Below are positions 26,616 through 33,293 of a stretch of DNA of 33,293 bases, piece by piece (within the stretch, counting starts at the first letter, position 1; the number at the start of each line of letters is the position of its first letter). Below the pieces are notes generated by a model that worked only from the letters and a program-made list of their open reading frames with translations, searched no databases and was not told where the DNA came from. Made by a program: the position numbers and the translations under genes. The DNA is from Thermus arciformis (lineage in GTDB: Bacteria; Deinococcota; Deinococci; Deinococcales; Thermaceae): assembly GCF_900102145.1 (NCBI RefSeq), contig NZ_FNBC01000025.1:1-33293 (forward strand), read 5' to 3'.

Positions 26616-27317
26616 CTACTTCAGCTTGGCCAGCTCCTGGCGGGCCCTCTCCTGGTCGTAGCGGTCGGCGGCGGTCTTGGCGGGGAGGGAAAGGGCGGTT
26701 TCCAGCTGCTTCCTGGCCTCCTCCTTCTTTCCCCAGGCGGCGAGAACCCGGGCGTACTCCACCCGGTGGATGATGGCCTCGGGCTCCAGCTCTATGGCCT
26801 TGCGCATGAGGGGCTCCACCTTGGCCCCATCCGCCCCCTGGGTGGCGGCCACCAGCCAGCCCTTCTGCACCAGCTCAAAGTGCCAGAGGGCCAGGGCCAC
26901 CATGGCCCCGGCGTGGTCGGGCTTGAGCTTTAGGGTCTTCTCCAGGTCGCTCCGGATCTTGGGGGCAAGCCCCTCGGCCAGGGCCTCGAGGATCCCCTTG
27001 TACTGGGAAAGCCTGCCCAGGGCCCGGGCCCGCTCAAAGTAGCCCTCGGGGTAGTCGGGGGCCTTGGCGATGGCCTGGGAAGCGGCCTTTTCCGCCCGCT
27101 CAAACCAGGTGCGCTTCTCGGCGTCCTTGGCCTGGTACATGGCGTAGAAGCTCGCGGCCTTGGCCGCCAGGGCCAGGGCCTCGGGGGTGGCGAGCTTGGA
27201 GCCCATCTCGTAGGCCTCCTGGAACCGCCCGGCGTCCAGAAGGGCCTCCACCTGGGAGGCCTGGGCCAGGGCCAGGGGCAAAAGGCTCGTCAGGAGCAGG
27301 ATAAGCGCACGCCTCAT
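26616..27317 (-). CDS. Exported TPR repeat protein
   Basis: A 233-residue protein with a signal peptide (ILLLTSLLPLALAQA) and tetratricopeptide-like helices. The clearest are AAEKAASQAIAKAPDYPEGYFERARALGRL, SDLEKTLKLKPDHAGAMVALALWHFELV and VEPLMRKAIELEPEAIIHRVEYARVLAAWGKKEEARKQLETALSL. The middle, WHFELVQKGWLVAATQGADGAKVEPLMRKAIELEP, faintly resembles the RMDN family. It probably acts outside the membrane as a protein-binding scaffold; the partner is unknown. It is divergent from another exported TPR protein gene, 69 bp apart, and has its own promoter. Confidence 0.78.
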   Translation of the reverse strand: MRRALILLLTSLLPLALAQASQVEALLDAGRFQEAYEMGSKLATPEALALAAKAASFYAMYQAKDAEKRTWFERAEKAASQAIAKAPDYPEGYFERARALGRLSQYKGILEALAEGLAPKIRSDLEKTLKLKPDHAGAMVALALWHFELVQKGWLVAATQGADGAKVEPLMRKAIELEPEAIIHRVEYARVLAAWGKKEEARKQLETALSLPAKTAADRYDQERARQELAKLK

Positions 27318-27386: not shown

Positions 27387-28835
27387 ATGAGGCGTATTCT
27401 GGGGCTTGCATGGATATTGAGCCTTCTGGCCCTGGCCCAAGGGGCCGAGGAGTATTACGCCCGCTGCGAGCGCCTTTACGGGCAAGGGGCCTTGGAAAGC
27501 GCCCAGGCCACCTGTGAGCTCGCCTTGGTAGAAGACCCCGGGTACCGCCCCGCCCTCCGCCTTCTGGTCCGCATCCACCTGGAGAAGGGGGATCTGGCCC
27601 AGGCCGAAGCCTACCTCTCCCGCCTGGGAGAGGACCCGGAGGCCCTCGTCCTCCGGGGAAGGCTTCTCCTCCTGAAGGGGAAGGCGGAGGAGGCGCTTGG
27701 GCTTCCCCTCCCCCCAACCCCCGAGGGGAGGCTCCTCCGGGCCCTGGCCCTTCGGGCCCAAAACCGCCTGGAGGAAGCCCTAAGGGAGGCCCAGGGCCTT
27801 CCCCCCACCCCGGAGGCCCGCCTCCTTTTGGCCCGGATCCACCTGGCCCTGGGGAACCCCGAGGCGGGGCTTGCCGCCTTGGGGTCCACCCTGGAGGAGC
27901 GGGTGGAGCGGGGCCGCCTCCTTTTCCTCGCGGGGAGGCCCGAGGAGGCGGTGGCCCTTCTGGAGGAGGTCTTGCCGCAGACTTCCGGCCGTACTGACCT
28001 CCAGCGCGAGGCCCTTTCCACCCTGGTCCTGGCCTACTTTGGCCAAGGGGACTGGGCCCGGGGGCAGGCGGCCTTGGGGCAGCTTGCGGGGCTTGTCAAC
28101 CTCCCCGCGCTCTTTCTCGCCCGGGTGTGGCCCTGGCTTCTCGCCCTGGGCACCTTTTTGGTCCTGGTGGTCCTGGGGGAAAGCCGCATTGAGCCCTTGC
28201 GCACGGTGGAGGTGGTGGAAGACCCCCTTCCGGGGCCGGGGAGCCTCTACCTCGCGGTCCTCCTGGCCCTGGCCTTGGCCTTAGGGGTGGCCCTCTTCCT
28301 GGGCAAGGCCCTCTTCGCCAACCTCCTGGCCCTTTTTACCCCCTACCAGAAGGCCCAGGTTCTCCCGGGGTTCTTCCTGGCCTACGGCCTCTTCCTCTTC
28401 GCGGGGCTTCTCCTCTGGCAGAGGCGGCGCCTTCCCCAGCTCCTGGGGCCTTTGGAGGGCTGGGTGGAGGGGTTTTGGGTGGGGCCGGCCTTGGTCCTCG
28501 CCCTTTGGGCCTACGGGCTGGTGCGGCCCTTCCTGGGGTTTCCCACCCTGCCCTTGCACCTCCTCGTCTTCCTGGGCCTGGCCCTCATGGAGCCCTTCTT
28601 CCGGGGCCTCGCCCCTTGGGTGTTCAAGGAGCGCTACCGGGAGCTCGCCCCCTACCTCTCTGCGCTCTTCTTTGCCTTGGCGGTGCCCGGTCCCACCCTC
28701 CTCTTCCTCCTCCTTGGGGCCGGGCTCCTTTGGGCCAAGGAGCGGGCGGGGAGCGTCTTGGGGCTCGCCTTGGGCTGGGTGGTGGCCGGGGTGGCCCTGG
28801 CCCTTTTCCCCTCCGCTTGGCTGCGCAGGTTCTGA
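27387..28835 (+). CDS. TPR protein fused to a CPBP-like membrane domain lacking catalytic residues
   Basis: A 482-residue protein. After a signal-like segment, residues about 20-245 form TPR-like helical repeats rich in Leu, Ala and Glu (ALESAQATCELALVEDPGYRPALRLLVRIHLEKGDLAQAEAYL...). The rest has about eight hydrophobic segments. The last part aligns with CPBP (Abi) intramembrane proteases: LMEPFFRGLAPW where EExxFRGxL is expected, SALFFALAVPG for SxLxFALxH, and LLLGAGLLWAKERAGSVLGLALGWVVAGVAL for the block ending HxxxN. The first Glu is Met and both histidines are gone, so protease activity is unlikely. TAAACT 7 nt upstream supports the start. Divergent from another exported TPR gene. No function can be named. 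Confidence 0.7.
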   Translation: MRRILGLAWILSLLALAQGAEEYYARCERLYGQGALESAQATCELALVEDPGYRPALRLLVRIHLEKGDLAQAEAYLSRLGEDPEALVLRGRLLLLKGKAEEALGLPLPPTPEGRLLRALALRAQNRLEEALREAQGLPPTPEARLLLARIHLALGNPEAGLAALGSTLEERVERGRLLFLAGRPEEAVALLEEVLPQTSGRTDLQREALSTLVLAYFGQGDWARGQAALGQLAGLVNLPALFLARVWPWLLALGTFLVLVVLGESRIEPLRTVEVVEDPLPGPGSLYLAVLLALALALGVALFLGKALFANLLALFTPYQKAQVLPGFFLAYGLFLFAGLLLWQRRRLPQLLGPLEGWVEGFWVGPALVLALWAYGLVRPFLGFPTLPLHLLVFLGLALMEPFFRGLAPWVFKERYRELAPYLSALFFALAVPGPTLLFLLLGAGLLWAKERAGSVLGLALGWVVAGVALALFPSAWLRRF

Positions 28836-28876: not shown

Positions 28877-29668
28877 ATGAGGCCGGTGTTCTTCCTCTCC
28901 GACTTCGGCCTGGAAGACCCCTACGTGGGGGTGGTCAAGGCGGTGCTCCGGGAGCGGGCCCCGGGGGTTAAAGTGGTGGACCTGGCCCACGACCTTCCCC
29001 CCCAGGACCTCCGGCGGGTGGCCTACGCCCTCTTTGAGGCGGTGCCCTACCTTCCGGAAGGGGCCGTGGTGCTGGCGGTGGTGGACCCGGGGGTGGGGAC
29101 CTCCCGGCGGGCGGTGGCCGTTTGGGGAAGGCGGTGGTACGTGGGCCCGGACAACGGCCTCTTCAGCCTGGCCTGGCTCCTGGACCCGCCCCGAAGGGCG
29201 TTTCTTCTGGAGCGCGTCCTTCCCCCGTTTCCCCAAGGGGCGCTTCCTGGCTGGCGCCCGGGAGAGGCCACCTTCCACGGCCGCGACCGCTTCGCCCCGG
29301 CGGCGGCCCACCTGGCCCTGGGCCTTTCCCCGGAGGCCTTGGGCCTCGAGGTTCCCCTAGAAAGCCTCAAGCGCCTTCCCCTCGCCCTGACCCCGGGGCC
29401 CGAAGGGGAGGTCCTCACCTTTGACCGCTTCGGCAACGCCATCACCACCTTGCTCCAGGCCCCTTTGGGGGGATCGGTGGAGGTGGCGGGGAGGCGGCTT
29501 CCCATCCGCCGCACCTTCGGCGAGGTGGCGGCGGGGGAGGCCTTGGCCTATTTGGGAAGCGCCGGGCTCCTGGAGATCGCCGTGAACGGGGGAAGCGCCC
29601 GGGAGGCCCTGGGCCTGAGGGAGGGGATGCCCGTGAGGCTCCTCTTGGCCCCCCCACCGGGGCTTTAG
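28877..29668 (+). CDS. SAM hydrolase / SAM hydroxide adenosyltransferase family protein (DUF62)
   Basis: A 263-residue enzyme of the family that splits S-adenosylmethionine with water to adenosine and methionine, related to fluorinases and chlorinases. The N-terminal FFLSDFGLEDPYVGVVKAVL holds the Asp, and ATFHGRDRFAPAAAHLALG holds the Arg and His of the Asp-Arg-His triad typical of the hydroxide-using enzymes. VVDPGVGTSRRAVAVWGRRWYVGPDNGLFS and the C-terminal beta domain (TFDRFGNAITTL) are also family-typical. The halogenase-specific loop is absent as far as I can see. GGGAGG 7 nt before the ATG supports the start. It is convergent with surE; a palindromic element separates them. Confidence 0.92.
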   Translation: MRPVFFLSDFGLEDPYVGVVKAVLRERAPGVKVVDLAHDLPPQDLRRVAYALFEAVPYLPEGAVVLAVVDPGVGTSRRAVAVWGRRWYVGPDNGLFSLAWLLDPPRRAFLLERVLPPFPQGALPGWRPGEATFHGRDRFAPAAAHLALGLSPEALGLEVPLESLKRLPLALTPGPEGEVLTFDRFGNAITTLLQAPLGGSVEVAGRRLPIRRTFGEVAAGEALAYLGSAGLLEIAVNGGSAREALGLREGMPVRLLLAPPPGL

Positions 29669-32946: not shown

Positions 32947-33293
32947 TCAACACATTTGAGACTCTGTGGGGACCGCCTCCCCCCGTATTCTAGCCAGGTA
33001 CTCTAAAGGGGCCAGGCCCCCCAAGGCCCGGTGGGGTCGCCGGCGGTTGTAGTGGTCCAGGTAGGCGTCAAGCTCCCTTTGGAGCTCGGGGATCTGTGAA
33101 GGCAACGGTCGTGTGTAGAACTCATCCCTAAAGGTCCGCTGCATCCGCTCCACGTGACCATTGAGCTTGGGGCTCCTCGGAGGAAGAACGAAGAGCTTAA
33201 CGCCCAAACGTTCACAGGCCTCCTCAAAATCGGACATAAACTCGCTGCCCCCATCCACCTGCACCGCACGGATAGGAAAAGGCGCTCGCACCA
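32947..33293 (-). CDS. IS481-like transposase, C-terminal part (cut by window edge)
   Basis: About 115 residues of the integrase core (rve) of a DDE transposase enter from the right edge. VQVDGGSEFMSDFEEACERLGV carries the second Asp, and PPRSPKLNGHVERMQRTFRDEFY the final Glu. The DAYLDHYNRRRPHRALGGLAPLEYL close is typical of IS481/IS3 proteins. The stop codon is inside the terminal repeat, whose bases encode the last residues (ESQMC). It has the same strand as the N-terminal piece at 1-252, and the two cover non-overlapping parts of one protein type. Confidence 0.88.
   Translation of the reverse strand, partial: VRAPFPIRAVQVDGGSEFMSDFEEACERLGVKLFVLPPRSPKLNGHVERMQRTFRDEFYTRPLPSQIPELQRELDAYLDHYNRRRPHRALGGLAPLEYLARIRGEAVPTESQMC
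32950..32963 (+). repeat. IS terminal inverted repeat, 3' end of element
   Basis: ACACATTTGAGACT pairs with the repeat at 303-316 with one mismatch, in the orientation expected for the two ends of one kind of IS. It overlaps the last codons of the transposase. Confidence 0.75.

Follow-up and report, generated by a model that had tools for sequence, protein, structure and literature searches.

A predicted periplasmic TPR array joined to a CPBP-derived membrane domain that lacks the catalytic set in Thermus arciformis

Scaffold or regulatory roles have been described for non-catalytic relatives of the CPBP intramembrane proteases. In S. aureus, the CPBP homolog SpdC scaffolds the glucosaminidase SagB (PMC10581084), and key catalytic residues are missing from it (PMC7387801). 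LnsB, a CPBP-like protein that diverges at all motifs, is required for lipoprotein N-acylation and has been proposed to have a non-catalytic or chaperone role (PMC7387801). APH-1 of gamma-secretase combines the CPBP fold with degenerate catalytic residues inside a membrane complex (PMC6588880, PMC7387801), and Abx1 of group B Streptococcus works by protein contact without using its putative catalytic residues (PMC3578759). The pneumococcal CPBP/Abi protein ComM likewise acts on membrane partners, and it may be catalytic (PMC12214887).

We analysed a 33,293-nucleotide stretch of Thermus arciformis DNA (hereafter the window), in which one gene joins tetratricopeptide (TPR) repeats to a membrane domain of apparent CPBP origin. 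SpdC/LyrA, likened here by description, resembles the product of this gene in being a CPBP homolog without key catalytic residues that serves as a scaffold; unlike the Thermus family, it has no noted TPR domain. LnsB is similarly CPBP-like without catalytic motifs, but it partners LnsA and no TPR domain is noted in it. Abx1 acts on membrane partners but itself keeps the putative catalytic residues, and neither it nor ComM has a noted TPR domain, while APH-1 differs in being eukaryotic and in keeping a QExxR motif and conserved histidines. These precedents overturn the claim of the sequence-only reading that no comparable system had been described, and SpdC/LyrA, LnsB, Abx1 and APH-1 (PMC10581084, PMC7387801, PMC3578759, PMC6588880) are closer analogues than the iRhoms that it had invoked. 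A search of the open-access literature for TPR together with CPBP or CAAX protease returned no relevant description. Non-catalytic CPBPs are already described; the new part is the TPR fusion and its clade-wide family.

Domain architecture and CPBP ancestry

The open reading frame is intact (482 aa, ATG start, TGA stop) and is divided as follows.

27387..28835, + strand: whole fusion gene, encoding a predicted signal peptide, a predicted periplasmic TPR domain and an 8-helix pseudo-CPBP membrane domain
27387..27437, + strand: predicted signal peptide, residues 1-17, ending in ALA ahead of Q, read from sequence; the N-terminus is similarly hydrophobic in orthologs
27444..28088, + strand: TPR domain, residues 20-234, seven helix pairs (Pfam, AlphaFold2 helices, Foldseek)
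28101..28832, + strand: membrane domain of CPBP descent, residues 239-482, predicted to cross the membrane with eight helices (AlphaFold2, hhalign, fold search)

Tandem TPR helix pairs place the product among the TPR proteins. Pfam matches in the window protein span residues 30-224, the best being to TPR_19 (E 1.4e-15, above cut-off); the full-chain AlphaFold2 model (pLDDT 93.6, pTM 0.85) contains seven TPR-like helix pairs followed by the membrane domain, and Foldseek pairs the TPR region with consensus TPR arrays (2.6e-6). The membrane domain modelled alone reached a pLDDT of 92.8 and a pTM of 0.90. At the N-terminus stands the signal-peptide-like segment MRRILGLAWILSLLALA, followed by Q. 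Within the membrane domain, loops 3, 5 and 7 are rich in K/R and loops 2, 4 and 6 are almost neutral, with loop 1, predicted to be cytoplasmic, an exception to the pattern in being net acidic. Loop charges and signal peptide are consistent with periplasmic TPRs and with loops 3, 5 and 7 facing the cytoplasm, which agrees with the earlier placement of the TPRs on the exported side; beyond the loop charges, we infer the topology.

Searched as a single sequence against Pfam and NCBIfam, the membrane part of the window protein gave no CPBP match. Orthologs were therefore scanned, which resolved the assignment: PF02517 was matched by 31 of 54 (best 5.6e-9; scanned singly, E up to 10). In a profile-to-profile comparison by hhalign, the family aligned with a profile of 27 CPBPs from the same phylum over 81 columns with a probability of 96.1% and an E of 3.1e-9. 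As controls we used eight further membrane proteins encoded in the window, together with CPBP alignments that had been reversed (one) or column-shuffled (ten); all remained at or under 0.54%, so the resemblance to CPBP lies above chance. Single CPBP sequences ranged from 0.3% to 91%; most stayed under 20%, and a few did not reach 1%.

Against a CPBP from the same genome, hhalign aligned MEPFFRG (401-407), FALAVPGP (429-436) and KERAGSVLGLALGWVVAG (451-468) with AEEVFFRG, FALLHPAP and TGSLLPGVLAHFLHN, respectively, bearing out the claim that three CPBP blocks occur in the right order and spacing. The sole PDB match of the family profile was MmRce1 (4cad_C), with a weak E of 0.027, aligned via FEELGWRG and a common R-Y. 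By fold, MmRce1 chains ranked 1, 2 and 7 in Foldseek (probability 0.51-0.75, with the other rows shown at or below 0.12), a match that is weak in absolute terms (TM 0.43-0.45, E 1-2). Descent of the membrane domain from the CPBP/Rce1-like superfamily is supported, with more weight on the hhalign comparison than on the fold match. With the CPBP/Rce1-like proteases (PF02517; MmRce1, PDB 4CAD), the Thermus family shares the homologous core, the order and spacing of motifs, the FRG and GSx blocks and the R-Y after motif 1; it differs from them in having one Glu for the EE dyad, no catalytic His pair or Asn, and an added TPR domain.

Catalytic motifs and selection across the family

Residue counts were taken from an alignment of 88 orthologs, in which three degenerate motifs, two invariant cysteines and several features particular to the family can be located.

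27465..27467, + strand: invariant Cys27, first TPR helix (88/88 orthologs)
27513..27515, + strand: invariant Cys43, second TPR helix (88/88 orthologs)
28176..28196, + strand: GESRIEP, a motif peculiar to the family that follows TM1 on the predicted cytoplasmic side, with invariant E265 (ortholog alignment)
28320..28349, + strand: NLLALFTPYQ, a loop peculiar to the family that connects TM2 to TM3 on the predicted periplasmic side, with N312, T318, P319 and Q321
28587..28607, + strand: degenerate CPBP motif 1, MEPFFRG (401-407), with E402 alone left of the EE dyad and R406 retained
28632..28637, + strand: invariant R416-Y417, also present in MmRce1 (88/88; PDB alignment)
28674..28694, + strand: degenerate CPBP motif 2, ALAVPGP (430-436), with V433 in place of the catalytic His and P436 retained
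28737..28790, + strand: CPBP motif 3/4 block (451-468), His replaced by W464 and Asn by G468 in the hhalign register

In place of the EExxxR of motif 1, the family has a single E plus R: the EE dyad is found in 0/88 orthologs, position 401 varies among M, A, L, S, T and N without ever being E, and E402 and R406 are each kept in 87/88. Loss of the dyad had been claimed and holds, but the proposed substitution of its first Glu by Met fits less well. Orthologs from sister families have VPLAEIFFRA or IPLAEPFFRG where the canonical sequence is VPLAEELVFRG, and the dyad of motif 1 seems rather to have contracted to one Glu (PLAEELxFRG to PLAExFFRG). E402 sits at R minus 4, like the second Glu of EExxxR, yet three residues past Pro, like the first; the losses at motifs 2 and 4 are independent of which Glu it descends from.

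At motif 2 (FxxxH), position 433 is V, L, I, F, Y or W and never H in 88/88. At motif 4 (HxxxN), position 464 is W in 52 orthologs, Q in 17 and H in one, the rest having other residues, and position 468 is G in 52, H in 13, W in 11 and N in two, again with other residues in the rest, so that the aligned His occurs in 1/88 and the Asn in 2/88. Apparent retention of the motif-4 His in orthologs of one related family (f5) was considered and rejected; that His occupies the Asn column, 468, and not 464. Replacement of both catalytic histidines, placed by the sequence-only reading within AVPG and LGWV, is thus confirmed at V433 and W464. Judged by these residues, the family falls outside the active CPBP proteases at all three motifs, and the catalytic set is lost in all 88 aligned orthologs; the loss is family-wide and is not decay of the window copy. 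Neither outcome that the sequence-only reading had named as refuting it, a profile comparison lacking a significant CPBP hit or orthologs with the catalytic set complete, was observed. The label of a dead protease stands as far as the catalytic set goes, while deadness as such is inferred only, the motif-1 Glu and Arg being kept almost throughout.

Nei-Gojobori dN/dS between close Thermus pairs came to 0.13-0.21 over the whole gene and to 0.02-0.23 over the membrane core (390-475), supporting purifying selection on the fusion gene. The family also has residues of its own under conservation: C27, C43, E265, P319, G366, R416 and Y417 are present in 88/88 orthologs, and S266, R267, N312, T318, E402, R406 and P436 are nearly invariant. 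The predicted topology places some of these residues on each side of the membrane, and the ortholog alignment contains no invariant His, Cys or Asp within the membrane domain. From the helix hairpin that holds them, a Cys27-Cys43 disulfide is probable. By sequence, then, the family presents a CPBP-derived domain without the catalytic set that is conserved by selection, as in non-catalytic CPBP scaffolds.

Distribution and gene neighbourhood

All 50 sampled Thermaceae genomes contain matches, which cover the full length or close to it except in G038 (T. parvatiensis), whose copy is split, and in G042, where the genome itself is fragmented and incomplete. At two T. parvatiensis loci (L003, L060), an apparent frameshift near codon 294 splits the fusion gene. 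With the membrane-domain profile, the family was found in 94 of the 111 sampled genomes of the phylum, a count obtained as 112 matching genomes minus the 18 listed as 'same domain'; all 111 carry one order label. Among 390 sampled genomes, the matches outside the order (18 genomes) are weak, below 40 bits, and where inspected they are canonical CPBPs with EE and His motifs. Among the 17 phylum genomes without the family, genera g14 and g30 are represented in full and g29 for the most part. The fusion gene thus appears to be absent from several lineages of the order, some of which have smaller genomes. Plasmid records queried with the membrane domain gave no match.

Three features lie beside the fusion gene or at the edge of the window.

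26616..27317, - strand: divergent neighbour, an exported 233-aa TPR protein (TPR233), usually head-to-head with the fusion gene
28877..29668, + strand: downstream gene, presumably S-adenosylmethionine-hydrolase/DUF62-like; it keeps its place beside the fusion gene at several loci, and we propose no functional tie
32947..33291, - strand: fragment at the window edge resembling an integrase/transposase core (DDE-type), from its translation

TPR233 flanks the fusion gene in 36 of the 39 Thermaceae/f4 loci examined, a set that includes some species twice and in which TPR233 sits farther upstream in at least one locus (L015); by coordinates it also adjoins the fusion gene in two f5 genomes (G073, G099). 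TPR233 has a conserved GRLxQ(Y/F)(R/K)G motif. Strict co-inheritance of the two genes was rejected, each occurring without the other in several genomes of the phylum, and the link between them is suggestive. At four f3 loci (L068, L069, L071, L073), the divergent neighbour, instead of TPR233, is a protein of 300-343 aa that by its sequence letters (GGGxRG, GTSSG) resembles a patatin-type phospholipase.

Possible roles of the fusion protein

The reading to which we lean, with somewhat better than even confidence, is that the fusion protein serves as an envelope scaffold, built from a pseudo-CPBP domain and periplasmic TPRs and comparable in its action to SpdC/LyrA, LnsB or APH-1. In this model, the signal peptide would send the TPR array to the periplasm, where the putative Cys27-Cys43 disulfide would brace the first repeat; after the TPRs, the chain would enter the inner membrane via the eight-helix CPBP-derived (Rce1-like) domain that lacks the catalytic set. 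The TPR groove may bind one or more exported or envelope proteins, and the former CPBP substrate cavity, together with the GESRIEP loop, the NLLALxTPxQ loop, E402/R406 and the RY pair, may hold a membrane partner. Coupling of TPR client and membrane partner would then position or regulate that partner, as SpdC/LyrA does SagB. Capture of client proteins and their retention at the membrane, suggested by the sequence-only reading, stays at the level of a proposal, as does the scaffold role. Counting against this reading are the near-invariant intramembrane E402 and R406, which exceed the strict needs of a passive scaffold, the want of strict co-inheritance with TPR233, the weak MmRce1 fold match, the net acidic loop 1 and the fact that no partner of the fusion protein has been identified.

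The density of invariant polar residues in the membrane domain, with E402 and R406 each kept in 87/88, could instead point to a repurposed enzyme, in which E265, N312, Q321, E402, R406, R416 and Y417 would form a new active site, for example for acyl or lipid transfer to exported proteins presented by the TPRs. LnsB offers a parallel in being needed for lipoprotein N-acylation without canonical catalytic residues (PMC7387801). The candidate residues are, however, spread over both predicted membrane sides, an invariant His, Cys or Asp is missing from the membrane domain, and no enzyme is consistently linked as a neighbour; we regard this possibility as rather unlikely.

The preservation of a divergent TPR233 at many loci of Thermaceae and f4, and next to the fusion gene in two f5 genomes, raises a further alternative, that of a transport or secretion accessory acting with this neighbour in the manner of the TRAP T-component (TAtT) TPR proteins. 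The similarity of TPR233 to TAtT and RMD1-3 is weak, with a TAtT signal in one ortholog (Pfam), whereas TPR233 and the fusion gene are each found alone and the TRAP genes of the window lie about 17 kb away. Such a role seems to us unlikely. A protease with a variant site would work without the usual histidines through the lone Glu, which at R minus 4 is placed like the first Glu of the EExxR of PrsW/APH-1. Conservation of E402 is what such an enzyme would need, and the one-residue contraction of motif 1 recalls EExxR/QExxR motifs (PMC6588880); the motif-2 His position, though, is hydrophobic in 88/88, the motif-4 His is replaced by W, Q or a hydrophobic residue in nearly all orthologs and the Asn is missing in nearly all, leaving this reading highly improbable.

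That the gene is a decaying ordinary CPBP fused by chance to a TPR gene, as the missing Pfam match of the window protein alone might suggest, is hardly credible and already refuted by the ortholog set and dN/dS, since nearly all Thermaceae, and most of the phylum as sampled, carry a full-length ortholog, dN/dS is far under 1 and the family has invariant residues peculiar to it.

A broader form of the scaffold reading, which we advance tentatively, is that of a clade-specific envelope machine organised by an ex-protease that joined a periplasmic TPR domain for client binding. The protein would then correspond to APH-1 in a bacterial, single-chain form, and E402/R406 might mark a new polar active site.

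Only a few pseudoenzymes are known from intramembrane protease families. The Thermus-type family would be a well sampled bacterial one, with a loss common to every ortholog examined, a fold under selection and a protein-binding domain on the same chain. The genus Thermus, with Thermus thermophilus, is genetically tractable, and the family offers a clean place to test the role of a CPBP fold that does not cut.
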